64,000 nucleotides of DNA, taken from Diprion similis. Taxonomy: Eukaryota; Arthropoda; Insecta; Hymenoptera; Diprionidae. Under the pieces are notes generated by a model. It did not search any database and was not told the DNA's origin. It saw only the letters and a list, made by a program, of their open reading frames with translations. The position numbers and the translations under genes were made by a program. Location: positions 18,684,001 to 18,748,000 of the forward strand of contig NC_060110.1 in assembly GCF_021155765.1 (NCBI RefSeq), read 5' to 3'. Every line of letters starts with the position of its first letter. Position 1 is the stretch's first letter. Below are positions 9,552 through 36,146 of this stretch, piece by piece.

Positions 9552-9772
9552 TTAAGGGCGTTCCTGGTCGACTTCGACGTTAACGTATATATCTCCAAAT
9601 ACCGAAGTCCACGTATTTCAAACGCGAAAAAGGGCCATTCTATACGCAATTTCGAACCAAAATATTCCAATACACTTTCATTCGAGGCAGAAATAATTAC
9701 GTATACTAGGAATTGCGTATAGAATGGGGTTAAGCCCTTTTTTGCTTTTGAAATACGTGTACTTCGATAGGG
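9552..9772. mobile_element. TTAA-type MITE, family 1 copy 1 (degenerate)
   Basis: It begins at TTAA (9552-9555) with a GGGCGTTCCTGGTCGA end and carries the shared internal block ACGTATATATCTCCAAATA. After that comes an inverted segment that repeats the element's own GCGTATAGAATGG and GAAATACGTG motifs. Related copies lie at 24367-24565 and 34829-34890. A TTAA target and a GGGGGTGCCCTGGTCGA end suggest a piggyBac-like non-autonomous element. The right end of this copy is lost. Confidence 0.6.
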
Positions 9773-12900: not shown

Positions 12901-15900
12901 CGCACTTATCCAAGGACCACCAGGAACAGGCAAGACTTTTCTTGCTTTGCAAATAATTCGCACAATGTTGGAGAATCGTGAATACTGGCTGGAACATGGG
13001 CCAGTCCTAGTTGTATGCTTAACAAACCATGCTCTGGATCAAATTCTTGATGGAATATTAAAGTACACAGACTCTATCGTCCGTGTTGGTAATAGATCAA
13101 ATAATCCAAAATTAGAGGAATGCACACTCAAGAACAAACGTAACAACAGTTTCATAATCGGCAATTCAGCAAGGCGTGCGCAGTCAAATATGTATTTTGC
13201 AAAACAGCAATTTCAATATCATTTACAGAGAATTGAACGAACCTGCATTTTGATTCAGAACTTAACACGAGAGAATACTGTTGTTTTATCACACGACCTG
13301 CAGAAATATTGTGGCGACTTAGTATTACTTGAACTTGACAGTCGGGACATCTTTAAACAGCTGCTCGGACCCAGCATCTCAGAGGTTGAATATTTTGAAT
13401 CGAGGTGTAACCTAGTTGAGCCTGAACCTACTGGAAATTCGGCATATCCATGGCAAACTAAATTATTTCACAAGTTACGGTGTTCACTTTCTGACTCTGA
13501 CTTTGTACTTCCTCTGAAATGTATAGACGAACTAATACATGAGATTTATGCACAAATGCATCTCTGCAGAAATGAGATGAGTATTCTGCCGTTCGATCCA
13601 ACTACTGAATTGGAGTACGATATTGCTGAACTACGTAAACTACGAGCAAATTTAGAGGTTAGTATAATTAACTTTAGTCAATGCGGTATAGTGTTCAAGA
13701 TACAAAAAAATATTCTAGTAGCTTTGACATGGCCTGCATCGCCATAGGTATAGATAAAAATCCTCAATAAAAATATTCATATTACGTAATTTTCAAAATT
13801 CGAAACTGAACGATAAAACAAAATGTTCCATAAAGGTTGCAACATCGTTTTTCAAATATCCAACATTGTCAAGTTATATTGGAATTGACTTTGATGAAAC
13901 TGGAGTTTTTTTATCTTTGGATACTAATGTTAAATATTTATACCTGATTTCATTTCTAATTTTTTTAAATTTTAGCAAAAACTGGCTCAACATCCATTAC
14001 TGAATACAGAAGAAAATCGACGTCCTCAACATCCAAATTGGGAAAAATATTGGCAATGGATAACAATCAGTTATGAAGGCGCAATGTCCGATTTGGTTAA
14101 GCTTAAAGAACGGTCCGGATACTGGCTTCAGGAATTGAACAAAGCTAAGGAGTCTTTTGATTTAGAAATACTACGGGAACATGAAGTCATTGGAATTACT
14201 ACAACAACCGCGGCAAGACTACACGCTTCCCTACGTGCTCTTCATGCACCGATAGGTAGATATATTTTCTTTTTGTAAAATGATACAACTACTCTTCATA
14301 TTTTTACGCCAGTTTCCTGGCTGATGAAAGTAACTTCATGCACGATTCAACGAACTGCATTTCAAGCAACACTATTAAGCATTTCTTTATCCAACCAATA
14401 AGTAAATTCCCTTGTCCCATTTGATAATATTTCTAATTCATTGTGATCTAAAATCAACTTAAATAAAATTAACTTAGCGATAAATTACCTATATAAAAAT
14501 TCATATTGCAATTAATAAACTACTTAATCGAATGATTTAAGAATCATGATTTGATTCTGGAACAAAAAAGGCTCATAAAATTTTTATAGTCATCAATAAC
14601 AATTTTATCACCTATTTAGTACTGGTAGAAGAAGCAGCTGAAATTCTTGAAGCTCACGTTGTTTGCACTCTAACTAAAAGTTGCCAACACCTCATCCTGG
14701 TTGGGGATCATAAGCAACTGCGACCAAAAGCAGCTGTTCACGAATTGGGAACTAAATATAATTTGAACATATCTCTGTTCGAAAGAATGGTCAATATACA
14801 GGGAGACTATACGCAATTGACGAGTCAACATCGAATGCGACCGGAAATTGCTGGATTGATATGCCCATCTATATATGAGACACTTCACAATCATGAGTCC
14901 GTTTGCGCATACCCTTCCATCAAAGGAGTGAGCAAAAATTTATTTTTCTTACATCACGAGCACGAAGAAGTTAGCTCTGAGTATAATGACGACAGTTGGA
15001 CAAATCCACATGAAGCCAAATTTCTAGTCGCACTTACCAGACATCTGATATTACAAGGATATGATGTATCAGAAATTACAATAGTCTGTACCTATGCTGG
15101 TCAATTATTCGTATTGATAAAGGTGGGAATATTTCTTATGCAAGCACTATTACTAGATGGAACTGTTAGAAAACTATTGTGCTTTTTCCACTTTCAGGAG
15201 AGAGAGCGTTATGCAATCCTCAGAGATTTACGCATAACAACGATTGATAACTATCAGGGTGAAGAAAATAAAATAATCCTGTTATCATTAGTACGAAACA
15301 ATAAAGAAGGAAATATCGGTTTTCTCAGAGAGGAAAACAGAGTTTGCGTAGCACTGTCGCGTGCTCGAGAGGGTCTTTACATTACGGGAAATATGCATAA
15401 TCTCACAAAAAATAACCATATCTGGCCTAAGATCAAAAATGTTTTAGAAAGTGGCAATACGATTGGTGATTGTCTCGAATTACAATGTCAAATTCACCCT
15501 GCTGAATTAATAAGCGTAAGTATTCATGACAATATGTTTCAAGTAACATAAGAATGTCAAACTATTTTTAGAAATGATGAACAGAGAATTGACATACAGG
15601 TACAAGGGTCAGTGGATTTTCAAAAATCCCCGGAAGGAGGTTGCTTGAGAAAATGTGATGCAAAGTTGTCTTGCGGACATACCTGTTTGAGCGTATGTCA
15701 TGTTGTTGACCGTGAGCATATTGCAGAGCATAAGTGCCACCAGCCTTGTCTTAAAGCTTGCCCAAAAAGTCATCCTTGTCCGCTTACATGTTCTCAAACT
15801 TGTAAAGACTGCCTTGTAGTCGAAAATCGAGAACTGAAATGCGGCCACACTGTGCCTGTTCCATGTTGGGTAGATTCAGACTCATTTTTATGTCCTGTCA

Positions 15901-18900
15901 TGGTATGTTTGAAATAAAATTTACAAATAATTTCAATAGTAATAAACAGCTGTAGCACCCATGTCTTAAGCTGGACAACCACTCACTTAAAAATCGTAGT
16001 TAATTCAAATCTCATAGGCTGTTTCAAATTTTCAGGTCAATGGGACTTTACCTGACTGTAATCACACGGTTTTAAAACCGTGTCATAAATCTGTCAACGA
16101 TTACCCATGCTCGCATCCATGTGATGTGCGAGTTCCATGTGGCCACTCTTGCGAATTGAACTGCCATGTAAATAAAGACCCTGATCACCTGACGGTAGTA
16201 TATTACATTTTTTAGTAACGTGGAATGGTTCAGTTATTACAATGAATATGTCATTAACAGTAGGCTTTACTGAATGCAGTATACAATTATATAATATACA
16301 AGGTATTATTTATTACAGTACAAGTGTAAGAAGGACTGTACAAGAACTAATCTCAACTGTAGTATGAATCATGCATGCAAAAAGCAATGTAGTCAAAAGT
16401 GCGACTTGTGCGATATCAATATGAAGAAAGAACGCTCTTGTGGACATTACTTTGAATGCTTATGCAGTCAAGATGTCGAAGCAATTGTGTGCAATAAACC
16501 ATGCAAGCGTGACATGGATTGTGGCCACAAGTGTCATCTGAAATGCGGTGAAGTTTGTGGAAAATGTCAAGTAATAGTGAGTAAAACATTCAAAACCGCT
16601 TATGATACAGATAATAAAATTTACCAGCATAATTGTATTCAATTCAAAAAATTTACTAAGGTAAATGACAATACTGAAAAAATTGCAGGTCGAAAAAGCA
16701 AGCACATGTGGACATAAGATGAAATTAAAATGCTGCGAAGAGGCAACATCTTCAAAATGTAGCAATGAGTGCAAGCTTAAACTAGCCTGTGGACATCCTT
16801 GCAAAGCTAAGTGTAAAGATCCATGCACTACTGTGTGTAAGCTCATGGTGCACAGAAGTCAACGCGGATTGTGCGGTCACAATTTTTCAGTGCCTTGTTA
16901 TTTGCAAGAAACAGGTAAGTGGCCCATGAATTATAATGATGATTTACATAATTTATAAAAATACGGAATAGTGTAGAATTTTGGTTCACTTATTTTTGGC
17001 AGTCTACAGAATGAAATTCTGCTTTGAAGCTAGCAAAGTATTCAGCAATATCGCTCACAGTACAAATATATAAATACAAATACTTTCACCAATTGATTTT
17101 TCTTCCAATCAGGAAATCCGTTGGAATTATTAAAATACTGTAAAGAACCATGTGTGACAGAACTGGCTTGTGGACATATCTGCAAAGGTAATTGCGGATA
17201 CTGTAAACAAGGACGCATACATACACCTTGCGGCGAAATCTGTGGCAACATTCTCGTTTGTGGGCATAAGTAAGATATCTCCGTGCATTAAATTTTTCCT
17301 CTGTAGTATGGATGGGTGAATTTCAAATTTTTTCAGAGCTTAGTTAAATCAAACTATAATCTGCCACATTGATATAAAACATATCCAATTTCTTAACACA
17401 CTTACAATGATTGTGATGCAGTGAAAAATCAGATTACATTTGATGCAGATGAGAACAAGGAATAATATTGCTAATATAACAAATATCAATTGTTTAGATG
17501 CGAGGTTCCTTGCAGACAAGAGTGTCCACCTTGTAAGAAAGTTTGCGAAGTCAAGTGCCGCCACAATAGATGCAATAAAAAATGTGGAGAACCGTGCACA
17601 CCATGCAAGGTATGATTGAAACTGATCTCATTGTGCGCGATATTGTGAAATTGGATCTCTAACGTATTATGCCTATTTGGATGTAGATAACGTACACCTG
17701 TTTAGTTTCAATATTTTTCAGGTTTGATTATTCTTCCATATTTATAATTGTAGTTTGTTCATGACAAGAATTGATTATGAATTACTTTGTATTAGGAAAA
17801 ATGCGGTTGGGGATGTCCTCACTCCAAATGTACCAAACGGTGCTTCGAATTCTGTGATAGAGAGCCGTGCAATGAAGAGTGCCCAAAGCTATTAAAATGT
17901 GGCCATTCCTGTGTTGGTTTTTGCGGAGAGCCATGCCCACCATTATGCCGGATTTGTAATAAAGAAGAACTTATGGAGGAATTTTTCCTTGGCAATGAGG
18001 ATGAACCGAATGCAAGGTGAATAACATTAGTTGCATCAATGATCATACCTAAACCATTAAAATTACTCGTAACTGAAACAAATTTTAACAAGTACCATCT
18101 TAAAATTTAATATCTCGACAGATTCATATTATTGGAAGATTGTGGGCATTGCATAGAAAGTGAAGGGCTTATGAAATGGGTATCAGAACGCAGTGACCCA
18201 ATTCAAATAAAAACCTGCCCACGCTGCAAAACGTTTGTCAGTAAATGTATGCGAATAATGAATCAAATTAAAACGGACGTGGCAGATGTACAAGCAATCA
18301 AGAAAAAAATATTTGGCGACCAAACATGGTTGCTGAACCAACAACAGCTTTTTCTCAAAGAAATCAAACGCATGCAAGAAAATCGAATTTCACAGAGTAT
18401 GCACATGAACATATTAATAAATTATACCACTCTATCCATTAACTAGGGATTCTCACGTGGAAGTTCTCAATACCGAATGTATTATGTCAATACAATGACC
18501 ATCTGATTTATTTTTCATTTCGAATTGAGGCATAGTTGAGTGCATCACTGCCCAGAAACATGATTACTGTATCGGGCTGGTGGATTCACTTTCTGATTGG
18601 AAAAGCTGAAGTTTTTGTTGATAAGTTGATTTCAAATAGTAAAAACACAAAGTATCAGTTCGCAAGTTTACTTGCCCTCATTTGCGTTATAATCTTTCCT
18701 GATATCCTATTACATCATACAATTATGTAAAGCTAAATCTTTGTCTACGCTTCAGTGACACTTATATCAATATTGCGAAAGATAGACTACTAATTACCTA
18801 ATTAAATTTCTGTTTCTTTGAAGGAGATTCGATTCAAGGCCAAAACGTGTATGGCCAGAACTCTTTATTTTGCGAACCTAACACATCAAATTACACTTTA

Positions 18901-19969
18901 ATGAACTAATCAATAATCTTTGACAATGCGAGTAACAAAACTTTTAATTACAGATTTCCTGGATCTGAATAATTTTTTGAGAGTTTTGCACACCAAAGTG
19001 CTTCCTATGACAAAAAAAAAGCGGCGGCAGGTTTTGGATGTGCGAGCAACGGAAACTACCAAGATCACACTGAACATTTTACAGCATATAATTGAAAAAC
19101 TGGAGAATATAGATCCCACAATTACGATCTATCCATGGTTAAATAATCAGGTTGTGATGTTAGTACAATCACTTTCAATTAGGGGACAGATTTCCAATCA
19201 GGAAATCAACGACATCGAAAAAGAACTTCAGAGATTACATTACATGGTAATAAATGTATTTGATCTGTACATCAAGACAGCAGATCAAGAGATTTTTAAT
19301 ACCAAGCTTAAGAACTGAATTCTTTAACTGCTCAAATTTCATACTCTGAACCGCTGTAATTCTTCAAGTGTTTGCTATATTCAGATTATGTAATTTTAAA
19401 ATGTGATATAATTTTTCATTTCTAACCGCCATACCTAAATAATCTAACTCAGATCAATGGAAATTTTGCTGTATCAAGCCACATTTTGCGTTTCAGTTTG
19501 AACGATTTGATCATCTGTTTTACACTTTCATTTGTTACGTATGTTACAGGTTGAAATTTGTAAGATGAATCTTCAGATCGTCTTCCAGCATAGTGACACT
19601 GTGGGACATGAAATCGGATTTATAAATTTAGTGGAGAAACTTACAAGTATTCATAAATTTACTGAAGAAAGAGAATTGGATATTAAAAATCAGATACATA
19701 TACTCGCACCATTATTAGATATGAAAAAGGTCATCCTGATGGATAACGAGCGTAAGATGATTGTTAAAGCAATAGGCTACAAACAAGGTCATTGGTTCAA
19801 GTGTCCGAATGGACACATTTACACCATTGGAGATTGCGGAGGTGCGATGGAAGAAAGCAAATGTAACGAGTGTGGAGCTGCCATTGGCGGTGGATCACAT
19901 CGTTTAAGAAGCGATAACTCATTGGCTACTGATATGGATGGAGCTACACGTCCTGCTTGGCCTCTGTGA
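9961..19969 (+). CDS. ZNFX1: NFX1-type zinc finger-containing protein 1 (ZNFX1), 5' end unresolved
   Basis: SF1/UPF1-like RNA helicase that in other animals binds RNA in granules, supports small-RNA inheritance in worms and senses viral RNA in mammals. Exons: 9961-10072, 11268-11366, 11452-13657, 13976-14255, 14620-15122, 15198-15515, 15600-15902, 16036-16194, 16319-16576, 16689-16914, 17113-17269, 17498-17609, 17796-18016, 18122-18396, 18954-19246, 19550-19969. They give about 1980 residues; human ZNFX1 has 1918. Order: a polar Arg/Ser/Gly/Asn-rich N-terminus; armadillo-like part; Walker A GPPGTGKT (12914-12937); motif II VEEAA (14625-14639) in place of DEAA; GDHKQLRPK; SQHRMRPE; DNYQGEEN; ALSRARE. 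Cys/His-rich NFX1 fingers follow from 15640 to 17960, then the RZ finger GHWFKCPNGHIYTIGDCGG in the last exon. The start exon upstream of 9961 was not found. The junction 19246/19550 is the least certain. Confidence 0.93.
10073..11267. other. ZNFX1 intron, no gene seen
   Basis: AT-rich intron between the two short exons that code the polar N-terminus. No open frame with recognisable motifs and no repeat structure was seen. Confidence 0.6.
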
Positions 19970-19998
19970 TAAACCTACACATTGTTTGAATAACAACA

Positions 19999-20004
19999 AA
20001 TAAA
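19999..20004 (+). terminator. Poly(A) signal of ZNFX1
   Basis: AATAAA 30 bases after the ZNFX1 stop codon. The same signal is kept in the pseudogene copy near 30442. Confidence 0.6.
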
Positions 20005-21159
20005 CTTACGTTAACGAGTACCACTTATCCACTCATGCTTTTTAATAGTCTGTATTAATCGGTTTACTCTATTTTTTGGTAATCATCAGTTCGACAGGAA
20101 TCAGAGATTCGAAACTGAACGATTGTGAAATCCGATCGCTCTCGTTTCTCAGCGTAACTTTTCCAATTAATTTATCAAAATGTGCAAGTTCTATGATCAA
20201 ATCCAATGATATTGATGGACCATGAATCCTCTGAATACAGTCAATAATGTAAATGTTTGGTTAGAACTCTGATTACTGGACACAATATATGTTTAATTTT
20301 ATATGATTGATTAATGAAAACGTGAAGTAAATCAGAATTGTATTGCTTGAATTAGACTACACAACTAAATTGGATATTCTAAATATTTGTCATAACAATT
20401 TATACTCGAAATTGTTTAGGACCGAGTAACACGTTCAAAATATTCAATGCATTTAGAATGATAAAAACACATGATTTGTTGAACAACTACTAATTTACTC
20501 GAGTCGATCGCTTGACCTAGCTAACAAAGAGGAAACTTCTGAACTAAATTTATAAGGGTGAAGCAGGATAGTTTGCGGCTTGATAAAGAACAACAGCAAT
20601 TTGAGTGACTTATTTGCGTGTATTTAATACTTCACGAATAGTATGGTTTCGTATTTCATAATGATACTAGCCCCTGAAAACCCATGTTTCTTTGTCATAA
20701 TAAATACAACTGACAATGAAATACAATAATTGTATGTTTGTCGAATACACCTGAACTTGTTTGTCAACTTCCCTGGAATGAGTTTATGCTGCTTCCATTA
20801 CTGAATCCGAAATTTCTTGACCAACGTAATTATGTAAAGGTAGTTTCTTAAGGTAAGATTAAATGTTCTATTTTTTGGGGTTATCATTATTATTTCGATC
20901 AAAAATTCAACCTGCTTCGTTGCGGATTTTTAAAAAAGCCAATAACAATTTACGAAGAATCCTTTGAAAGTCTGGTACCAAAACTCTTACGTGAAAAGAT
21001 ATCATTACAACTATAAAATTATCGTTGGAATTTGAAGATTGACGGTTTGCAACAAATCAACAAAATTTAAAAGCAGGATACATCAATTCACTTTTTTACA
21101 CTGACATGTTTTTTCATATGCGCGTGATCCTTACACCAACTATCTTACGTTTGAAATGT
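20005..21159. other. Tail-to-tail intergenic region, ZNFX1 / esterase A
   Basis: AT-rich stretch between convergent genes, with no coding signal on either strand. It is duplicated as 30450-31590, with small indels between the copies, for example about 40 extra bases near 30885 in copy B. Confidence 0.6.
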
Positions 21160-21165
21160 TTTATT
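21160..21165 (-). terminator. Poly(A) signal of carboxylesterase A
   Basis: AATAAA on the minus strand, about 90 bases past the stop codon. It is conserved at 31596-31601 in copy B. Confidence 0.5.
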
Positions 21166-21253
21166 CGTGGATGCGTATTTGCAATACTTGTACCTTCACA
21201 GCATCGATTCCGTTCAGGAGACAATTGTAAAGGTGAAAGACGAAGTGCCATAG

Positions 21254-24090
21254 CTAGTGCAAGTTTACAGCGGCTAACAGTTGGTCCCAAAATCGAAATC
21301 GGTCAACGGAATATCCATACTTCATTCGAAGAGTTGTGTCAGAATTATCTCCTATTTGGAGGTAATTATCTAGTGAACGTGAATATGGTGACCACGCTGG
21401 AGTGCCATCCAAAGTTGTTGGTGTTCTGAAAGCATAATTCCGGATTTCCCACCATTCTTGCATAGCTACGGTCAACTGGGATTTTCTCATTTTCTTTTTT
21501 TTCATTTTTCTTATATCTAGTCGCTTGCGTTTACCCAGTAGTTGCAAAGGAGGTCCACAATTGGACCATCGTGTCCACCATTTTCCAATCGGCCTCACTA
21601 AATTCGTAGCCTGAAGGTCCAAACTGAGACTTCGGTCCCGGAAGAAGGTAGAGAAGCTCATCACCGTGTGCGACACCCATATTCACAGTATCCCCTCCGC
21701 TGAAGAAATAGGTGTAACTAACTGTACCCCGGTAGTTGAATGAGCAAAAATACTGGGGGCTCTTTGTATGAAGCGCTTTTTCCTGAACAACTTTGTGCGA
21801 AAAATATGAGAGGAAACTATCACCCAGGAATAGTGTAAAATTATTAAATATCTGAAACAAGTACCGAATGTTAGATCTAGTGATCGTGAAAATCGCGACC
21901 TTATTTGCTGGCTTTGAATACCTACTATGTTTTGATCAGCGGTCAAATTGTTAAAGTAGTATGACTTAATGGCATCAGCGAAGACCGTCAGATTGTCAAT
22001 CTGATGCTCATGTTGTAAGACGTGAGGTAGAACAATATCAATCTTGTTCACGAATTCTTTGAGCAAGTCTTGTTTGTCGAGAAATACTAATGAAAACAGA
22101 AATAAAATATTATTAAAATTGCATTCATATGTTGTCTGCACTATATTCTAGTGCTATGTTTTACAAACGCTTTCCACTTTTTTTTAAGTTGTAAGTATAC
22201 TTGCAGGCACCGAAGACAATTCCTTCGTCGCGAACAACCTCGATTATCGACGGCAGATCACGGATCATTCCGCGAGCATACAGGTTCCTTGGAGTATCCG
22301 TTATAAATGCTCCTTCTATTTCCGGTTCGATACTCGGACCCCATATGACATACGGAAATATGAACCACTTGGTGAACACAGACGTCGTATCGACAAGTTG
22401 CGACGCGTTAAAAGTTCTCAAACAGTTAACAAGGGCAGCAGAGGTATTAGTCGGGCAGCCAAGATGTTCACCAAGCGTAGCAGCAGAATTTGCACTCTCC
22501 GTTCTCGAATGTGGAAATAGGAACCCTAGCGCGTTTCCACTTTGTAGTATATATCTATGAAAAAGTCCTGTAAGAATAAAAAAAACAAACTGTATCGGTA
22601 GTTATTCGAGCAGAACGCAAAAATTGACGTATCCAATTACGTGCAGTGAAATTAAATTGTGTAGCATGACTAAGGCTGAAGAAAACTCGCGCCCAAGGAC
22701 CAGTGAGCTATATGAATGTATGTAGGTATCGCACCAATGATCAACAGATAGTGGGTCTCACCATTCGTCAAATTCGACATCGTCAAGAGATGAACGCACC
22801 CGGCCCCTGAACTTCCTCCATGAACAGTGACTCGATTCGGATCACCGCCAAAATAGCGAATGTTGTCTCGAGTCCATTCTAAAGCTCGAACTAAGTCTTT
22901 AAGACCGTAATTTCCAGGTGACACTTCATCTCCAGTACTGAGATATCCTAAAGGACCCATACGATAGCTAGGAACTACCAGAACGACATCTTTGTCAAGG
23001 ATGAATTGAGGTCCCCATCGTTTTGGATTATTCGTTCCTGTTTTGTATCCGCCGCCATAGGCAAACAGCATTACTGGTAGTAACGTGGAGTTATCACTGG
23101 TAGGAAGCTGCAGGATTGAGCAAATTAAAAATCGTTTTCAAAATACACATTCGGCAACCTAGAATATATCCTCGTTGAAGATGCATGGACTGACTACACG
23201 CAAGTCTATAACATGACAACTGTCGTCCGAAGTGTGTATTTTTCTACAAATCGACAATTTCAAAGTGCTAATAATATCAGGAATAATTATTACTTGCGGT
23301 GTATACACATTGAGATAGAGACAGTCCTCATCTCCGATGAACACTGTACCATCCAGCTGAGGACATGGGGGGGAATCGACGCTACCATCTAAAGTTCCAT
23401 TCCACGCTTCTGCCGGTACGGGTCCCTTGAATCTGTATCGAGACAACAGCGAAGGTTGTTTTTTAACTTTCACACAACACAACATCCGGTATTTCAATGG
23501 ATTGATCTCTCAAGGTAGAGATTTGAGAATAGTTGTTGGTTACGCATTGTATAAGAAATAATTACTCAGAACACTTAATCCAACCAATAAAAAAAATTAG
23601 TCCGAAAGTTGAACTTGAGAGTTACTGAATGCAGCAAATTATTAAATTCACTCTGCTTTGTTTCAGAGAAGTAGTGAAGTTTATTACAACCACCCCAAAA
23701 ATAAAAAGTGGAGTATCCAGATGATTCAGAGGTCTAGAGAATCACCTCTGATTATTTTCACACGGACGCATGGGTATGTGCGTTTTCGCATGTATGTGCT
23801 TTTTTTTCTAGTAATCAACATGAATTTTCTAATCTTGAAGCAAACCTGAGATTTCCAATCGGCGGTTGTGCGAATGGGATTCCTTTAAAGACGAAGAATA
23901 TCCGGTTGCGGCGCGTGACCATATTTACACCTTGAATTTTTCCTTGAAGTATATGGACTTCTGGGCGAGTCGAATTCTCAACAACATCCGTATTTCCAGC
24001 CGGGGCACTGTCACAAATACTTATATAACTGCTTAGTGAAAATAGTACCAAGACGTAGAGTCTGAGGCTAAAATTTGATTGTATAACCAT
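21254..24090 (-). CDS. Secreted type-B carboxylesterase A
   Basis: Alpha/beta-hydrolase esterase, 580 residues, secreted. Exons in coding order: 23846-24090, 23294-23432, 22762-23107, 22205-22567, 21926-22086, 21535-21851, 21254-21425. The start is the Met of MVIQSNFSLRLYV because upstream residues differ from copy B while this Met is shared; a hydrophobic signal peptide follows (about residues 9-25). Triad by position: Ser227 in GGSSGAG, Glu358 in RDEG, His480 in GVAHGDEL. The oxyanion region is YGGGY rather than the usual HGGGF. Exon 4 seems to end at a GC donor (T|GCAAGT, 22204-22203): the nearby GT reads out of frame, while GC restores FGALFLDKQDLLKEF. It lies tail to tail with ZNFX1. Substrate is unknown; the class includes juvenile-hormone, odorant and detoxifying esterases. 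Confidence 0.9.
22713..23465. repeat. 753-base tract identical to 33147-33899
   Basis: By eye I found no difference between the two copies across 753 bases, covering exon 3, intron 2, exon 2 and part of intron 1. The next base on each side differs (22712 against 33146; 23466 against 33900), and substitutions are common beyond. Confidence 0.85.
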
Positions 24091-24366
24091 CCTGTTGTTT
24101 GCAGTCTCACGCATCGTCGACAAATGATTCCCAAGCTGAGGGTTTGGCTCCCTATATTCAACTGCAGTGCGAATTGTTTCGTAATTCTCACGCTAGCGCG
24201 TGAACTCTGACCGTAAGTGATTTCTCATACTCAGCCAAGTGCGAATTGTGTCATTCGGGAGGCGACTTTCCGATAATCAAGGCTGTGTGTAATATGGACA
24301 AAATGCGTGCTGCCTCAGTTTTACCAATGATTACATTCATAACATTTCAAATTTTCAATCAAACCA

Positions 24367-24565
24367 TTACGGGGGTGCCCTGGTCGATTCCAAAGTTGGC
24401 GTAGACATCTCATTTGATGCTGAAATAAAAATGAGCTAGAAAGTATTTATTCGAAATTGCGTATAGAATGGAACTGTTGAGCCCCTTTTCGCATTTGAGA
24501 TACTTGGACTTCGATGTTTGGCGGTATATACGACAACGTCGAAATCGACTAGAGCACCCCCTTAA
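24367..24565. mobile_element. TTAA-type MITE, family 1 copy 2
   Basis: About 200 bp with imperfect terminal inverted repeats: GGGGGTGCCCTGGTCGATT on the left and AATCGACTAGAGCACCCCC on the right. TTAA follows on the right (24562-24565) and TTAC precedes on the left. It carries the family motif AATTGCGTATAGAATGG. Its left half also marks the right edge of duplication copy A. Confidence 0.75.
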
Positions 24566-25247
24566 CTGACATAGAAAACCGAGAAGGAAACCTAGTCAAT
24601 TATTTTATCAATCGAACAAAGCGCATTCGAGAAATAAACACGTGCCTACAGATTAATATTGCTTAAAAGCAAGATAGTAGATAGACAATAGAATGCTTAA
24701 AAAATCATTTTTGTTGACACGCAATATTGTTCTTGTACATGTTACATGTTATACCAGTGGCTCGCTAAAAAATGCCTAATATTGAACCTGGTGAAAGGAA
24801 AATGCCGATGACGCTGAAGCCAGCAGCTAAACTTAGCAGCTGGACACGGCAATGCATAGGGGCGGCACGTACGGGGATAATTTAATCTGACACGTAAAAA
24901 AGCCATAAAAACGGAATAGTAATAGCAGGAAACTTGAATAAAACGACCCACTTGCTAAAGTACGGATAATTATCGATAACAATACGGTTATACAGTAGAT
25001 AAGTTTTAATTGATTATGAAGTTATGAATTGATTCGATTGCTGGGTGGGGAAACGACCGCGGAATTTGAAACTTGGTGGAAATATTCTAGATAGGGCCCG
25101 AATATTAGTCTCACATATCTTAACCTTCAAGTTTCATTATAGTTGCCACAGAGTTTTTTGATTTAAGAGAATTTTAATTCAGCAAGTCTCTGTTCTAATC
25201 ATTTTCCACACCATTAAATTCGAGATTGTCAACAAGTCAACGCATAC
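24566..25247. other. Spacer, nothing recognised
   Basis: Unique spacer between the two duplication copies. It contains only a short minus-strand open frame (24742-24951) with no family resemblance. Confidence 0.5.
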
Positions 25248-25517
25248 GCCGCCTGAACTTCCTCGACAAACAATGACGACTCGATTGGGATCACGACTAT
25301 GACAATAATCAGACTACGTAATGTTATCATGATTCCATTATAAAACTCCAACCAGGCCTTTTAGGTCGCAATTTGCTGCTGGCAGATTGTGTCCAGTGCT
25401 AATCGCAAGATATCCTGTGGCCCCCAAATAATAACCAGAAACTGGTGGACGATGTCTTTATTAAAGATAAATTGAGTATCCCATGGTTGGTAGATAATTG
25501 TTGATTCCAATTTTAGG
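25248..25517 (-). pseudogene. Relic of a third carboxylesterase, exon 3 fragment
   Basis: On the minus strand this aligns colinearly with esterase exon 3 (22799-23048). Shared words include CCGCCTGAACTTCCTC, GACTCGAT-GGATCAC, CAATTT and AAGATATCCT. It is far more diverged than copies A and B are from each other and carries frameshifts and stops. No other esterase exons are visible around it, so it is an old fragment or the remains of a lost tandem copy. Confidence 0.7.
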
Positions 25518-27449
25518 GAATCTTACGAATATGTATATCATTGTCAGTGACAAAAAGTACTTCTAAAATAAAAACAGTTGATGTCGAGTAAGCTGAATAA
25601 CGTTCAGTAGTTTTATACTTGTCTGAAACGGGGGAGGATATTTTTTTATTTTCAAGTATTTGACTGTCGGAATCAAAAAACTCTCGAGCAAAATCAAATC
25701 ATCCACTGTCAGGCTGCCCTATTCCATTTCCACTTTAATTGTAAGGTCATTTTTAGCACTCGATAAGTATCAACTGCGGTCTTACAACAAACCCGCCATT
25801 CTATCCTATAATATCTCAATCACACTGTTGAATTGTGTAATTTAAGAGCAGTCTTCTGATAATCGAGAGTTGCCGAAAGACGGCGGAAAATTACTTTGTA
25901 TACGCACTAATGATAAAACGCATGCGATTACGGTTTAAACGATGATTTCTTCTTTCATATGTTAAATTTTTATCACTAACGGATACGAGAATCGCTTCGT
26001 TTACCACCTTATCATCGAATATAACATTTAAAAATCGAGACAGTCCTATCAGTCAATATTAATTTAAAACGATGATGCGACATGGACAGTGTAGCTACGT
26101 ATAAACTGCACGGTATCTCGAGATAATTGCCTACTCAAAGAATTAATAAACGTACACAAAAAAGGCCAGTCATCTTTGAGCTATATGCGAATCTAAATAT
26201 AAAAGTTCGCCGAACATATAATGTTAGAAAATAGACTATTTTCTGCGCAATGTGATAACCCCTAGCAATCCCTCTCTATCGGTTGGTTTTTAATCATTTA
26301 TTAGGCGGTTATAAATAAGTCTTGGTTGATTTTGACGTCCTAAATAGCCGCGATACGTAATTTCATAATTATTACTGGCTGACGATGAGCTTTTTATCTT
26401 ACGGTCGATGATAATGTGACCCAGTGTCCCAAGCCCAATTCCAAACAATAATCTACGAGACCCTGAGCCTTGCTTATTCTCTCCGCTCCTGTCATGTTTG
26501 TATTTTAGGGGTTTCGCAATGATGATGAAACTTTGTCAGCAGTAGCCATTAATCCTGAATTTGGCAAACAAAAACGAGATTAGATTATACTTAATCCGTC
26601 ATTGCTGCCAATGATAGTAATGGCAATGAAATGTTTGGCACGTGGATAGTTTCATTTTTTTTCAATACAATAGAAAACCGCTGTTCCTCAGTTTTTCGAA
26701 ACAAATGACGTGACCGCTCTCTTCGGCGGGTTTGGTAGTTTGTTGACAATTCGTGTGAATATTCGTCGAAGATGAAACAAAGTATCCAAAATATGCGGTT
26801 ATTGCATAGGAACCGCTCCATGAATTAAAACTCTTCAAATTGCGTCAATTTCTTACAATCGGCAAGAGTTTTTGCAACGAATCAGTTTATATATAGCACG
26901 ATTATGAAGCAATAATCTCTAATGCCATAGTTATGACGTACAAATAAATGCTTAGTAATAAATCTTACAACTTATTTTGTGATGTGATCACAGTGCACGC
27001 GTAATCATGTTTATAGATATGCGTCCCTTAATAACACAGCTGCGTTATTCAAAGACACGATGTGTATAAAATTGGCACAGCCCATGCGTAAACTCACAAG
27101 ATACCGCTGAAATAAAGCACGATCAACAACTGAGAAAATATTATTTATGTTAGCCAGTTTTCGGACGTAGCTTTCGAAACATCGATCGCAGTGGCTTGCG
27201 ATCATGACACTCATTTTCTCTTCCAAACTTACGCCGATATAGCTTGTGCAATAATTTATTCTAGTGTTTTGGAAATCGGTAAAATTTTTGGCGAAAACTG
27301 AAACCTGTACCTCTTGGTCGGTTTTTCCGACTAAGGCTCTACTCACATGACGCCCCGAAGCAATACCTCGAAATCCATTAGTTACAGCAATTTACTTCGA
27401 AAATTTCATCGAACATTTTGTAAGCTCGTAAAGATCAGATCGGGTCGAG
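25518..27449. other. Spacer, nothing recognised
   Basis: AT-rich sequence. The longest open frame is a 111-codon minus-strand one at 27011-27346, with no motif, no splice context and no repeat elsewhere in the window. I do not call it a gene. Confidence 0.5.
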
Positions 27450-27699
27450 CAGTGTTTTCAGTCTTCTTGAATTCGCGACCCCTTTCCAAGTAAAACAAAT
27501 CGGGCGACCACTCAGGTCCATAATAAAACTATGTCAGCGATTGCGAAAACAATTTATTCAATGTTTATTCTATTGAGAGTATACCTAAAAACTACGACCT
27601 TAGCTTTTTAATTTTACCTGACTTATGACCGCAACCCCCCACAGTAAAACTTGCAGGTGACCAGGCTGGGAGTCGCAACCAACATTTTGAAAAGCACTG
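27450..27699. mobile_element. hAT-like MITE
   Basis: A 250-bp element with ends CAGTGTTTTCA and, inverted, CAGTGCTTTTCA. Each end is followed by the kind of TCGCGACCCC / TTGCGACTCCC stretch that many hAT non-autonomous elements carry. The 8-bp flanks (GGGTCGAG and TGCTAGAG) match at 5 of 8 positions, consistent with an aged 8-bp target duplication. No transposase frame is present. Confidence 0.6.
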
Positions 27700-27982
27700 T
27701 GCTAGAGCATACGAGTTGACATGATTTTTGTGTGTTTGGTACTCTGGATTTTTTCAAACGAAGATAACATTTCCATTCAATGTATTTTAATTACCTACTT
27801 ATCTTTTTTCATTGTATTTCGTCAATCTCGGTCGGTCACTACAAAATAGTTTTCCAATTTCTTGTCGACTTTGGTACAATTAGCAAGCATAAATTATTCT
27901 ACGTGATTATCAAAATAAGTTATAAATTCTACGATGCACGCGAAGCTGGGAATTATCAGCAAGGTTGAATCAATTTAGTAAC

Positions 27983-28042
27983 GTTAGTTTGACGAAATAT
28001 TGAAACCGAATTATTAATTTGCAACTTCACAATGATGACCTT
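27983..28042. repeat. 60-bp direct repeat, left unit
   Basis: Matches 34915-34974 at 52 of 60 positions, same orientation and same length. It sits 55 bases left of duplication copy B; its partner sits just right of copy B. Confidence 0.75.
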
Positions 28043-28107
28043 AATAAATTCATATTCAATAAATTCTATACGATGCTTTAATTGAAAAATTGAAAGAATA
28101 TGAATTG

Positions 28108-30412
28108 TTTAGACGCGAAGTTCCTTGCTGACAAGAGTACACTTGTTTTCGTTTCAATATTTTACGGGATTGATTATTTTTCCATATTTATAGTTATAGT
28201 TTGTTTATAACAAGAATTGATTATTGATTGCTTTGTATTAGTAAAAATGCGGTTGGGGTCGTCCTCACTCCAAATGTACCAGAAGGTGCTTTGTATTGTG
28301 TGATAGAGCGCCGTGCAATGAAGAGTGTACAAAGGTATAAAAAAATATGGCCATACTTGTGTTGGTTTTTGCGCGGAGCCATGTTTTGTAATAAAGAAGA
28401 ACTTATAGAGGAATTTTTCCTTGGCAATGAAGATGAACCAAATGCAAGGTGAATAACGTTAGTTACACCAATGATCACATCTACCCCTCAAAATTACTCA
28501 TAACTGATACAAATTTTAACAAGTGCCATCTTGAAATTTGATATTTCGACAAACTTGTATTATTGGAAGATTGTGGGCATTGCATACAAAGTGACGGGCT
28601 TATGAAATGGGTATCAGCACGCAGTGACCCAATTCAAATGAAAACCTGCTCACGCTGCAAAACGTTTTTCAGAAAATGTATAAAAATAATGAATCAGATT
28701 AGAACTAACGTGGCATATGCACAAGCAATGAAGAAAAAAAAATTTGAAGATCAAACATGTTTGTTGAACAAGCAACAGCTTTACCTCGAGCTTTTACTGA
28801 AATAAATCAAAAGCATGCAAGAAAATCGAATTTCACAGAGTACGCACATGAACATATTAATAAATTATACCACTCTATCCATTAACTAGGAATTCTCACG
28901 CGAAAGTTCTCAACACCAAATGTATTGTGTCAATACAATGACCATCCAATTTATTTTTTAATATGAATTGATTGTGAGGCATAGTTGACTGCATCACTGT
29001 CTGGAAACATAATTACTGTATCGGGCTGACGGATTCACTTCCTGATTTCAAAAGCGGAGGTTTTTGTTGACAAGTTAATTTCCATTAGTAAAAACACAAG
29101 GTATCAATTCGCAAGTTTACTTGACCTCACTTGCGTTATAATCTTGACTGATATTCTATGGCATCATACAATTATGTAAAGCTAAATCTTTGCCTACGCT
29201 TCAGTGACACTTACATCAATATTGCGAAAGATGGACCACTAATTCATTGAATTTCTGTTTATTCGCAGAAGACCCGATTCAAGGCCAAAACGTATAGCGA
29301 TAACTCTTTATTTTGCAAACCCATCATACCAAATAACACTTTAATGAACTAATCAGTAATCGTTGGCAATGCGGATAGCAAAATTTGTAATTGCAGATTT
29401 CCTGGATCTGAATAATTTTTTGAAAATTTTGCACACGAAAGTGCTTCCTATGACAAAAAAATCGGCGGCAGGTTTTGGATGTGCGAGCAACGGAAGCTAC
29501 CAAGATCACACTGAACATTTTACAGCATATAATTGAAAAACTGGAGACTATAGATCCCACAATTACGATCTATCCACGGTTAAATAATCAGGTTGTGAGT
29601 TAGTACAATCACTTTCAATCAAGGGACAGATTTCCAATCATGAAATCAACGCCATCGAAAAAGAACTTCAGAGATTACATTATACGGTAATACATGTATT
29701 TGATTTGTATATTAAGACAACACATCGGGAAATTTTGAATATCAAGCTTCAGAACTAAATTCTTCAACTGCTAAAATCCTACACTTTGAACTTACGTAAT
29801 TTTTCATGCGTTCTCCATGTTCGGATCAATTTCGAAAAATGATATAATGTTTAATTTCTGACCGCTATACTTAAATAATCAAATTTAGATCAACACAAAT
29901 TTCCCTGTATCAAGCCACATTTTGCGTTTCAGTTTCAACGATATGATCATCTGTTTTACACTTTCATTTGTTACGTATTTTAGAGACTGAAATTTGTAAA
30001 ATGATTCTTCAGATCGTGTTCCAGCATAATGACACCGTGGATTATGGAATATAATTTATGAATTTGGTTGAGAAACTTACAAGTATTCACAAATTCACTG
30101 AAGAAAGAGAATTGGATATTAAAAATCAGATACATATACTCGCACCATTATTAGATATGAAAAAGGTCATCCTGATGGATAACGAGCGTAAGATGATTGT
30201 TAAAGCAATAGGCTACAAACAAGGCCATTGGTTCAAGTGTCCGAATGGACACATTTACACCATTGGAGATTGAGGAGGTGCGATGGAAGAAAGCAAATGT
30301 AACGAGTGTGGAGCTGCCGTTGGCGGTGGATTACATCGTTTAATTGTAAGAAGCGATAACTCATTGGCTACTGATATGGATGGAGCTACACGTCCTGCTT
30401 GGCCTCTGTGAT
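28108..30412 (+). pseudogene. ZNFX1 3'-end pseudogene
   Basis: Duplicate of ZNFX1 exons 12-16 without helicase exons. Breaks seen: most of exon 12 is deleted; the first codon of the exon-13 copy is TAA instead of GAA; an in-frame stop and a short deletion follow within that exon; the exon-14 acceptor CAG has become CAA; the exon-14 copy has a stop after LELLLK; the Lys-rich part of the exon-15 copy has lost a base; and in the RZ finger the Cys after TIGD is TGA (near 30270). The start of the last exon is also frameshifted. The RZ-finger part of that exon is nevertheless almost identical to copy A. Confidence 0.9.
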
Positions 30413-31595
30413 AAACCTACACATTGTCCGAATAACAACAAATAAACTTACGTTGACGAGTACCACTTATCCACTAACAATTTTTAATAGTCGGTATTAA
30501 TTGGTTTACTTTATTTTTTGGTAACCATCAGTTTGACAGGAATCAGAGATTCGAAACTAAACGATTGTGAAATCCGATTGCTCTCGTTTCTCAGTTTAAC
30601 TTTTTCAATTAATTTATCAAAATGTGCAAGTTCTGTGATCAAATTCGATGATATTAACGGACTTTAAATCCTCTGAATACCGTCAATAATGTGAACGTAT
30701 GGTTAGAACTCTGTATGATTGCTGGACACAATACATGTTTAGTTTTATATGATTGGTAATAAAAACGTTAAGTAAATCACAATTGTATTGCTTGTATTAG
30801 ACTAGTCAACTAAATGGGATATTTCAAATATTTGTCATGATAATTTTCACTCGAAGTTGTTTAGGACCGAGTAACACATTCAGTAATGTACAGATTTGAA
30901 TCAGAGCTTTGTGAAATATTCAATACATTTAGAATGATAGAAACACATGATTTGTTGAACAACTACTACTTTACTCGAGTCGATCGCTTGACCTAAAAAA
31001 GAGGAAACTCCTGAAGTAAAATTATGAGGGTGAAGCAGGATAGTTTGCGGCTTAATAAAGAACAACAGTAATTTGAGTTACTTATTTGCGTGTATTTAAT
31101 ACTTTACGAACAGTATGGTTTCGTATTTCATAATGCTACTAGCGCCTGAAAACCCATGTTTCTTTGTCATAATAAATACAACTGACAATGAAATACAATA
31201 ATTGTATGTTTGTCAAATACACCTGAACTTCTATTATTGAATCCGAATTTCTTGACCAACGTAATTGCGTAAAGGTAGTTTCTTAAAGTAAGATTGAATG
31301 TTCTATTTTTTGGGGTTATCATTATTATTTCGATCAAAAATTGAAACCGCTTCGTTACGGATTTTTAACGAAGCCAATGACAATTTACGAAGAATCCTTT
31401 GAAATTCTGTTACCAAAACTGTTACGTGAAAAGATATCATTACAACTATAAAATTATCATTGGAACTTGAAGATTGACGGTTTGCAACAAGTCAACAAAA
31501 TTTAGAAGCAGGATACATCGATTCACTTTTTGTACACTTACATGTTTTTTCATATGCGCGTGATCCTTACACCTACAATCTTACATTTGAAATGT
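30413..31595. other. Duplicated intergenic region, copy B
   Basis: Counterpart of 19970-21159. No coding signal. It shows scattered substitutions and several small indels relative to copy A. Confidence 0.6.
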
Positions 31596-31601
31596 TTTAT
31601 T
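31596..31601 (-). terminator. Poly(A) signal of carboxylesterase B
   Basis: AATAAA on the minus strand, about 90 bases past the stop codon, conserved with copy A. Confidence 0.5.
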
Positions 31602-31689
31602 CGTGGATGCGAATTTGCAATACTTGTACCTTCGCAGCATCGATTCTTTTCAGGAGTCAATTGTAAAGGTGAAAGACGAAGTGCCATAG

Positions 31690-34526
31690 CTAGTGCAAGT
31701 TTACAGCGGCTAACAGTTGGTCCCAAAATCTAAATCGGTCAACGGAATATCCATACTTCATTCGAAGAGTTGTGTCAGAATTATCTCCTATTTGGAGGTA
31801 ATTATCTAGTGAACGTGAATATGGTAACCACGTTGGAGTGCCATCCAAAGTTGTTGGTGTTCTGAAAGCATAATTCCGGATTTCCCACCATTCTTGCATA
31901 GCTACGGTCAACTGGGATTTTCTCATTTTATTTTTTTTTTTCATTTTTCTTATATCTAGTCGCTTGCGTTTACCCAGTAGTTGCAAAGGAGGTCCACAAT
32001 TGGACCATCGTGTCCACCATTTTCCAATCGGCCTCACTAAATGCGTAGCCTGGAGGTCCAAACTGAGACTTCGGTCCCGGAAGAAGGTAGAGAAGCTCAT
32101 CACCGTGTGCGACACCCATATTCACAGTATCCCCTCCGCTGAAGAAATAGCTGTAACTAACTGTACCCCGGTAGTTGAATAAGCCAAAATACTGGGGGCT
32201 CTTTGTATGGAGCGCTTTCTCCTGAACAGCTTTGTGCGAAAAATATGAGAAGCAACCATCACCCATGAGTGACGTGAAATTATTTAATATCTGAAACGAG
32301 TACCGAATGTTAGAGATAATAATCGTGGAAACCGCGACCTTATTTACTGACTTTGAATACTTACTATGTTTGGATCAGCGGTCAAATTGTAAAAGTAGTA
32401 TGACTTAATGGCATCAGCGAAGACCGTCAGATTGTCAATCTGATGCTCATATTGTAAGACGTGAGGTAGAACAATATCGATCTTGTTCAAAAATTCTTCG
32501 AGCAAGTCTTGTTTGTCGAGAAATACTAATGAAAACAGAAATAAAATAGTATTAAAATTGCATTCATATGTTGTCTGCACTATATTCTAGTGCTATGTTT
32601 TACAAACGCTTTCCACTTTTTTTTATGTTGTAAGTATACTTGCAGGCACCGAAGACAATTCCTTCGTCGCGAACAACCTGGATTATTGACGGCAGATCAC
32701 GGATCATTCCGCGAGCATACAGGTTCCTTGGAGTATCCGTTATAAATGCTCCTTCTATTTCCGGTTCAATACTCGGACCCCATATGATATACGGAAACAC
32801 GAACCACTTGGTGAACACAGACGTCGTATCGACAAGTTGCGACGCCTTCAAAGTTCTCAAACAGTTAACAAGGGCAGCAGAGGTATTAGTCGGGCAGCCA
32901 AGATGTTCACCAAGCGTAGCAGCAGAATTTGCACTCTCCGTTCTCGAACGTGGAAATTGAAACCCGAGCGCGTTTCCACTTTGTAATATATATCTATGAA
33001 AAAGTCCTGTAAGGATAAGAAAACCGTATCGGTAGCTGTTTGAGCCAAACGCAAAAAATGACATATTCAATCAGGTGCAGTAAAATTGAATTGTGTAGCA
33101 TGACTAAGGCTGAAGAAAACTCGCGCCCAAGGATCAGTGAGCTATGTGAATGTATGTAGGTATCGCACCAATGATCAACAGATAGTGGGTCTCACCATTC
33201 GTCAAATTCGACATCGTCAAGAGATGAACGCACCCGGCCCCTGAACTTCCTCCATGAACAGTGACTCGATTCGGATCACCGCCAAAATAGCGAATGTTGT
33301 CTCGAGTCCATTCTAAAGCTCGAACTAAGTCTTTAAGACCGTAATTTCCAGGTGACACTTCATCTCCAGTACTGAGATATCCTAAAGGACCCATACGATA
33401 GCTAGGAACTACCAGAACGACATCTTTGTCAAGGATGAATTGAGGTCCCCATCGTTTTGGATTATTCGTTCCTGTTTTGTATCCGCCGCCATAGGCAAAC
33501 AGCATTACTGGTAGTAACGTGGAGTTATCACTGGTAGGAAGCTGCAGGATTGAGCAAATTAAAAATCGTTTTCAAAATACACATTCGGCAACCTAGAATA
33601 TATCCTCGTTGAAGATGCATGGACTGACTACACGCAAGTCTATAACATGACAACTGTCGTCCGAAGTGTGTATTTTTCTACAAATCGACAATTTCAAAGT
33701 GCTAATAATATCAGGAATAATTATTACTTGCGGTGTATACACATTGAGATAGAGACAGTCCTCATCTCCGATGAACACTGTACCATCCAGCTGAGGACAT
33801 GGGGGGGAATCGACGCTACCATCTAAAGTTCCATTCCACGCTTCTGCCGGTACGGGTCCCTTGAATCTGTATCGAGACAACAGCGAAGGTTGTTTTTTAC
33901 CTTTCACATAACACAACATCCGGTATTTCAATGGATTGATTTCTCAGGGTAGAGATTTGAGAATAGTTGTTGATCAAGCATTGTATAAGAAATAATTACT
34001 CAGAACACTTAATCGAACCAATAAAAAAAAAATCAGTCCGAAAGTTGAACTTGAGAGTTACTAAATGCAGCAAGTTCTTAAATTCACGCTGCTCTATTTC
34101 AGAGAAGTAGTGAAGTTTATTACAACCACCCTAAAAATAAAAAGTGGAGTATTCAGATGATTCAGAGGTCTACAGAATCACCTCTGATTATTTTCACACG
34201 GATGCATGGGTATGTGCATTTCCGCATGTATGTGATTTTTGTTTTAGTAATCAACATGAATTTTCTAATCTTGAAGCAAACCTGAGATTTCCAATCGGCG
34301 GTTGTGCGAATGGGATTCCTTTAAAGCCGAAGAATATCCGGTTGCGGCGCGTGACCATATTTACACCTTGAACTTCTCCTTGAAGTACACGAACTACTGG
34401 GTGAGCCGAATTCTCAAAAACATCCGTATTTCCAGCCGGGGCACTGTCACAAATACTTATATGGCTGCTTAGTGAAAATAATACCAAGAAGTAGAGGCCG
34501 AGGCTAAAATGCGATTGTATAACCAT
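31690..34526 (-). CDS. Secreted type-B carboxylesterase B
   Basis: Intact paralogue of carboxylesterase A, also 580 residues. Exons in coding order: 34282-34526, 33728-33866, 33196-33541, 32644-33006, 32365-32525, 31974-32290, 31690-31861; every exon has exactly the length of its copy A partner. Signal peptide, GGSSGAG, RDEG and GVAHGDEL are all kept, so it should be an active secreted esterase. The same GC donor (T|GCAAGT) is used after exon 4. Exons 2 and 3 and intron 2 are identical to copy A; differences fall in the signal and early mature region (for example EVHILQGKIQ against VVRVLQGEVQ) and in exons 4-7. An open frame extends further upstream, but those residues are not shared with copy A, so the Met of MVIQSHFSLGLYF is taken as the start. 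Confidence 0.9.
33147..33899. repeat. 753-base tract identical to 22713-23465
   Basis: Copy B partner of the identical tract across esterase exons 2-3 and the intron between them. Confidence 0.85.
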
Positions 34527-34828
34527 CCTAATATTGTTTGCGGTTTCACGAATTGTCGATAAATGATTCCCAAGCTTGCGATTTCGCTTTCTATATTCAA
34601 CTATAGTACAAAATGTTTCGTAATTTTCAAACAAGCATGTGAACTCCGACCTCTGGTAATCCCTCATACTCAGACTAGTGCGAATTGTGTCATTCGGGAG
34701 GGATCTTTCCGATAATCAAGGCTGCCTAGGCATAGCGAAGAATGTAATTGTGCAATACGGACAAAACTCGTGCGTCCCGAGTTTCAGCAATGATTACATT
34801 TATAACTCTCCAAATTCCCCACAACCCA

Positions 34829-34890
34829 TTAGGGGGGTGCCCTGGTCGATTTGGAAGTTTACGTATATATCTCCAAATATTTAAGTCCTC
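34829..34890. mobile_element. TTAA-type MITE, family 1 copy 3 (truncated)
   Basis: Left end GGGGGGTGCCCTGGTCGATT, then ACGTATATATCTCCAAATA as in copy 1, ending abruptly after AAGTCC. It lies at the same place relative to the esterase as copy 2, so it predates the duplication. Confidence 0.7.
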
Positions 34891-34914
34891 AATCGTGAAT
34901 AAGGGTAGTAGGCT

Positions 34915-34974
34915 GTTAGTTTCACGAAATATTGAAACAACATCATTAATTTTCAACTTCATGATGATGACCTT
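34915..34974. repeat. 60-bp direct repeat, right unit
   Basis: Partner of 27983-28042 (52 of 60 identical). Together they bracket duplication copy B. Confidence 0.75.
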
Positions 34975-35127
34975 CAAGATTTGGAATTTCTAGAATATGA
35001 GATTCATTTTACTTTACTATGGTCCAATAAATTCCATCCCATCCGTGAATTGGAAAATTGCGATTTTTCCTAATCATCTACTGTTACATTAACGTTCCAA
35101 ACATCAACCTCATAAAAGTACAAGGAT

Positions 35128-35893: not shown

Positions 35894-36146
35894 GCGTGTA
35901 TTTCAATACAACTTCAAGGCATGTGCTTCAATGCAACTCCTTCTTAAGGGGGAAATGGGAAGGGTCTCATAAAAGCATGTGTTTCAATGCAGCTCAGGGA
36001 AATTGCATGTGTTTCAATGCAGCTCCGGGGAAATGCATGTGTTTCAATGCAGCTCCGGGGAAATGCATGTGTTTCAATGCAGCTCTGGGAAATTGCATGT
36101 GTTTCAATGCAGCTCATTCTTAAGGGGGAAATGGGAAAGGGTGGAC
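35894..36146. repeat. 30-bp minisatellite
   Basis: Five tandem 30-base units (35975-36124; unit begins GCATGTGTTTCAATGCAGCT) with few changes, plus two diverged units at 35894 and 35919. The array is bracketed by copies of TTCTTAAGGGGGAAATGGGA at 35941 and 36117. Because the unit length is a multiple of three, the plus strand stays open and would encode the repeating peptide MCFNAAPGKC; nothing suggests that this is translated. Confidence 0.9.

Follow-up and report, generated by a model that had tools for sequence, protein, structure and literature searches.

A tandem duplication of a carboxylesterase gene and a ZNFX1 3′ end in Diprion similis, with apparent gene conversion between the copies

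Tandem pairs of esterase genes that undergo ectopic gene conversion are known from the Est-5 family of Drosophila pseudoobscura and the beta-esterase cluster of D. melanogaster. A review (PMC3924832) counts esterases among its case studies of gene conversion, and PMC3142176 compares Est-6 with psiEst-6. Here, we describe a duplicated carboxylesterase in Diprion similis, found in a window of 64 kb (positions 18684001-18748000 of contig C6) that was analysed against a genome of 269 Mb in 60 contigs. TTAGG repeats abound in this genome, in keeping with an arthropod. Judged from the sequence, the locus very probably arose by an old direct tandem duplication with later gene conversion, leaving two esterases that would both still be active and a ZNFX1 tail dead in the second copy. 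Literature searches, including one for ZNFX1 and insect duplication, found no account of this locus; one may still exist in print.

The duplicated block and its tandem junction

Self-comparison of the window gave a single large direct repeat, 17692-24411 against 28137-34873, with 90.0% identity over 6815 columns. A further 51-bp match (17473-17523 with 28088-28138) set the left edge, which falls in a ZNFX1 intron shortly 5′ of an exon; about 170 bp are missing from copy B just inside it. In a genome-wide search with the block, the two window copies were the only long matches among the 37 listed. The original prediction, which proposed a self dot plot as a check, had placed colinear copies at 17482-24410 and 28097-34890; the copies are real and those coordinates were nearly correct.

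17473..24411, no strand: copy A of the block, surviving homology to B (self-comparison and edge match)
28088..34873, no strand: copy B of the block (self-comparison and edge match)
27966..28092, no strand: tandem junction, the right end of unit A (two-piece match to 34896-35060)
34896..35060, no strand: right end of unit B, beyond which the DNA is unduplicated (match to the junction)
24367..24565, no strand: palindromic MITE-like repeat in A, bordering the segment missing in B, which has one arm at 34829-34888
25209..25499, minus strand: relic third esterase, an exon-3 homologue with a stop, in the spacer of A only

Immediately to the left of copy B lie two segments (27966-28042 and 28057-28092) that match 34896-34974 and 35025-35060 just to its right (63/79 and 29/36 bases, respectively). 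This match, with that of 17473 to 28088, indicates a head-to-tail tandem in which the end of the first unit is joined to the start of the second. Copy B is the downstream unit. At 10.6 kb (~17473-28092), unit A is longer than unit B (7.0 kb, ~28088-35060) by a spacer, 24411-27966.

The spacer starts within the palindromic repeat, which is widespread in the genome and accounted for 57 of the 60 matches listed for it (40 of 352 candidates were scored). As B retains a single repeat arm, a deletion in B is a simpler explanation than an insertion in A. The duplicated unit was thus probably ~10.6 kb originally, and B would since have lost ~3.5 kb, from within the MITE-like repeat to near the unit end. 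The 6.9-kb block first proposed holds as homology and is probably too short as the original unit. That unit would have included the repeat and the relic esterase exon (67% identical in DNA and 49% at the protein level, with one stop), the single exon of this gene that was found. From this relic, the locus probably already carried at least two esterases when it was duplicated. The direct tandem duplication copied a unit whose left edge lies within a ZNFX1 intron and which takes in the 3′ exons of ZNFX1 and a complete, convergent carboxylesterase gene.

The window holds other repeats. The MITE-like palindrome also occurs at 9552-9769, a tandem array (30-bp unit, 4.9 copies, 92% matches) lies a little to the right of the duplication at 35971-36116, and an imperfect inverted repeat of ~700 bp lies at 50951-51655, where minus-strand frames appear exportin-like by eye.

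Two esterases and a broken ZNFX1 tail

The genes carried by the block are as follows.

21254..24090, minus strand: esterase A, 578 aa (exon lengths and open frame; Pfam COesterase, 418 bits)
24090-23846, 23432-23294, 23107-22762, 22567-22211, 22086-21926, 21851-21535, 21425-21254, minus strand: exons of esterase A
31690..34526, minus strand: esterase B, 578 aa (exon lengths and open frame)
34526-34282, 33866-33728, 33541-33196, 33006-32650, 32525-32365, 32290-31974, 31861-31690, minus strand: exons of esterase B
11375..19969, plus strand: ZNFX1 gene, approximate span (Pfam scan; the last exon encodes the RZ zinc finger)
17498-17609, 17796-18016, 18122-18396, 18954-19246, 19550-19969, plus strand: ZNFX1 tail exons in A, one open frame to the stop
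28088..30411, plus strand: ZNFX1 tail pseudogene in B, pieces of exons a to e (lesions; match to A)

Esterases A and B share their exon lengths (245/139/346/357/161/317/172, 1737 nt in total), and have no internal stop; all of their introns, six per gene, run from GT to AG. We chose the start codon and the exon-4 donor, identically in both copies, the donor having been selected by reading frame and by agreement in length with paralogs. The copies differ at 59/1737 nucleotides and 40/578 residues. Copy A, to which the scan was applied, matches Pfam PF00135 (COesterase) with 418 bits against a cut-off of 27, over profile positions 3-515 of 515. This full-domain match, together with a Ser-Glu-His triad (S227, E358 and H478) whose serine lies in a GGSSG elbow of the GxSxG type, identifies a member of the carboxylesterase family, and none of the 40 residue differences falls on the triad.

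A search of PDB chains with copy A matched 161 distinct chains, the best being 7mp4 (Carboxylesterase-24; E 2.3e-78), followed by several alpha-esterase-7 and related entries, 4fnm among the matches with E 1.8e-65. Entries 4fng and 4fnm (E3 alpha-esterase-7) are, we presume, from Lucilia. The triad Glu and His of esterase A align with 4fnm at positions that we take to be the triad residues of that enzyme. The nucleophile motif is GGSSG in the D. similis esterase, GCSAG in 7mp4 and GESAG in 4fnm. Both proteins have a hydrophobic leader, seen by eye, and are thus probably secreted; both genes would still yield secreted, active carboxylesterases. A and B differ at codons 428-430, which correspond in the alignment to residues 418-420 of 4fnm, in a helix that presumably lines the substrate pocket of Lucilia alpha-esterase-7. 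Upstream of the genes, DNA more than ~320 bp from the ATG can no longer be aligned between the copies. Given this divergence in the helix and the upstream DNA, it is plausible that A and B differ in substrate or expression.

The gene whose 3′ end lies in copy A contains the ZNFX1 domain (PF25396), an SF1 helicase (PF13086/PF13087, AAA_11/AAA_12) and the RZ zinc finger (PF20173); Pfam matches were obtained in three of the five open frames scanned, with no family for the other two. Its tail exons are 36-78% identical, exon by exon, to those of a ZNFX1 paralog on the same contig. The tail in B is without the gene's 5′ part and, beyond the ~170-bp deletion, carries length changes in exons b (+2, -16), c (+12), d (-2, -1) and e (+6), AA instead of AG at the acceptor ahead of exon c, and four in-frame stops (one each in exons b and c, two in exon e). 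The original prediction had described a whole carboxylesterase in each copy, with seven exon lengths and the triad kept, beside a ZNFX1 tail broken at many points in B, and had cast ZNFX1 as a passenger; these descriptions are borne out, one duplication having copied the 3′ end of ZNFX1 together with the complete esterase.

Two more tandem ZNFX1-like genes, the second seen in part, lie on the opposite strand ~0.4 Mb from the window, at ~19.140-19.156 Mb of the contig (C6 19140001-19160000; L017, L018). No esterase was found beside them among the 115 matches listed.

Apparent gene conversion and the age of the duplication

Identity between the copies forms a mosaic along the block. The longest identical run, of 753 bp, takes in esterase exons 2 and 3 with the whole of intron 2 between them, and extends into the adjoining ends of introns 1 and 3:

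22713..23465, no strand: gene-conversion tract in A, identical to 33147-33899 (longest-run shuffle test)
33147..33899, no strand: gene-conversion tract in B, identical to 22713-23465 (shuffle test)

A run of this length was reached in none of 5000 shuffles of the differences, in which the longest was 147 bp for the whole block and 318 bp for the esterase gene. The 300 columns on either side of the tract differ at 22/295 and 18/300 sites. Intron 2 has no difference in 186 sites and exons 2 and 3 none at 122.8 synonymous sites, and the identity of a whole intron and of synonymous sites rules out shared constraint as the cause. The other esterase introns differ by 5.8% (intron 1), 9.0% (intron 3), 1.6% (intron 4), 13.5% (intron 5, 10/74) and 0.9% (intron 6), and one ZNFX1 intron differs at 68/548 sites. 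Divergence outside the tract is also patchy: its variance/mean is 3.6, and the highest value in 2000 shuffles was 1.64, although exon constraint can contribute to this measure.

A sharp-ended tract of high identity, crossing exon and intron inside an older duplication, is the pattern of ectopic gene conversion, by which the units would have exchanged sequence, most recently over the 753 bp spanning exons 2 and 3. Outgroups did not serve to give its direction, as the candidate paralogs are only ~48-68% identical there. Part of the dead ZNFX1 exon e of B is 97-99% identical to A, so conversion probably freshened this piece too; A is the likelier donor, since the surroundings in B carry the lesions.

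The ZNFX1-tail introns differ by 12-18% between the copies. Three intron stretches of the ZNFX1 tail have Jukes-Cantor (JC) distances of 0.136, 0.137 and 0.157, and 19319-19550, also intronic, has 0.211. In the esterase, intron 5 stands at 0.149 and the 5′ flank at 0.228. Values are lower for intergenic DNA (0.080) and for esterase introns 1, 4 and 6 (0.060, 0.016 and 0.009). Because conversion lowers the others, we take the higher distances as nearer the true age, which presumes that the more diverged introns are unconverted; the lower ones (intergenic 0.080, esterase introns 0.00-0.15) fit conversion. An insect substitution rate, not specific to D. similis, is 2.9e-9 per site per generation. 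At this rate, introns and flank correspond to ~23-39 million generations, the intergenic DNA to 14 million, and the identical tract, with no change at ~391 neutral sites, to less than ~1.3 million. The duplication therefore looks old and the homogenisation recent. The original prediction had called the duplication recent, a view that the 0.14-0.23 substitutions per site in the ZNFX1-tail introns and esterase flank do not support, and the same divergence led us to reject a simple recent duplication.

We compared ten other alignments of neighbouring esterases (contigs C2, C14, C3 and C6), drawn from 40 rows among the matches listed. They are 74-96% identical, with longest identical runs of 56-403 bp, so that the window pair has the longest run of the eleven. 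In seven of the ten the longest run exceeded all 500 shuffles, which ignore exon constraint. Four loci (L022, L024, L025 and L029) hold neighbouring copies with identical runs of 239-403 bp, perhaps reflecting further conversion. A family-wide preference of conversion for the nucleophile exon was considered but not established: the Ser codon, located in five of the ten alignments, lay within the longest run in none, though in three it was close (~16-102 bp).

Selection on the esterases and alternative readings

Outside the tract, dS between the esterases is 0.061 and dN 0.045. The resulting dN/dS, which the original prediction had proposed as a check, is 0.73, with a bootstrap interval of 0.43-1.31 that includes 1; no constraint is detected at the level of residues. 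The nonsynonymous share did not differ from that in a neutral simulation, being as low in 26% of the 220 stop-free runs (from 2000). The reading frames are nevertheless intact despite 59 changes, for which chance predicts ~2.2 stops and 3.9 indels (indel rate, 14 indels per 211 noncoding changes, one indel lying at an alignment edge). The chance of this is P ~0.002 if both copies are neutral and ~0.05 if only B is, and the intact frames moderately favour two retained enzymes.

With four paralogs as outgroups, 21 of the 40 residue differences between the esterases were polarisable, 12 derived in A and nine in B, leaving 19 that were not; in ZNFX1 exons b-e, 33 of 57 were polarisable, five derived in A and 28 in B, leaving 24. 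Exon a (35 codons, 32 differences), misaligned by the deletion, was left out. The two distributions differ (Fisher P 0.002, resolved changes only): the ZNFX1 piece decays in B, and in the esterases both copies have changed to a similar extent. Outside the conversions, A and B appear to diverge almost freely, the helix that we take to line the pocket included. A cluster of changes near codons 414-437, nominally unusual in that 79 of 5000 shuffles reach it, was considered as positive selection and rejected, since the adjacent intron 5 is equally diverged (10/74) and missing conversion in this stretch is explanation enough.

Simple selective retention is not supported as a reading of how esterase B was conserved: exons 2 and 3 are apparently converted, changes elsewhere are near neutral proportion, and A is as derived as B. 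As their identity comes from apparent conversion, the serine kept in B is no evidence of long selection, and conversion alone could keep the frame of B open.

That last point leads to the reading in which esterase B is a dying copy, its open frame surviving by chance and by conversion from A. A dN/dS indistinguishable from 1 agrees with it, as does the dead ZNFX1 exon e, seemingly part-refreshed in the same way; we nonetheless consider it unlikely, given 417 unconverted codons in which neither stop nor indel has appeared (P ~0.05 if B alone were neutral) and a copy A that has changed as much as B. The skew of the ZNFX1 decay towards B and the intact frames, lengths and triad of both esterases would suit a recent duplication under strong purifying selection on both enzymes, with no conversion and a ZNFX1 tail that merely decays. 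We regard this as most improbable in view of the dN/dS and of an intron 2 and exon 2-3 synonymous sites free of differences beside introns diverged by 9.0% (intron 3) and 13.5% (intron 5). An assembly artefact is very unlikely, whether two haplotypes joined end to end or polishing with short reads that overwrote the tract in one copy with the sequence of the other. Exact identity over 753 bp is what mis-mapped polishing should produce, but elsewhere the copies are up to 20-25% apart, too much for alleles, their right flanks differ and the junction has diverged; the assembly also contains long TTAGG arrays, with contig C1 starting with one, as in long-read assemblies.

Within our preferred reading of an old duplication with later conversion, the enzyme might evolve in two compartments, with conversion repeatedly returning the exons of the catalytic core, which hold the oxyanion loop and the nucleophile, to a common sequence, and diversifying selection driving the pocket exons and promoters of A and B apart. 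We think this rather doubtful; if true, the pair would be one engine with two specificities. If the pocket helix differs while the core is identical, the pair would offer a natural test of conversion against divergence in one enzyme. In this single block, the live gene and the dead fragment of another act as mutual controls. The locus illustrates why selection on a duplicate is not proven just because its exons are intact and its triad is kept.

A tandem esterase pair that bears conversion is an ordinary outcome of a known process and not a new kind of event. Like the Est-5 family and the beta-esterase cluster, the D. similis genes are linked carboxylesterase paralogs; unlike those pairs, their duplication also took the 3′ end of an unrelated gene.
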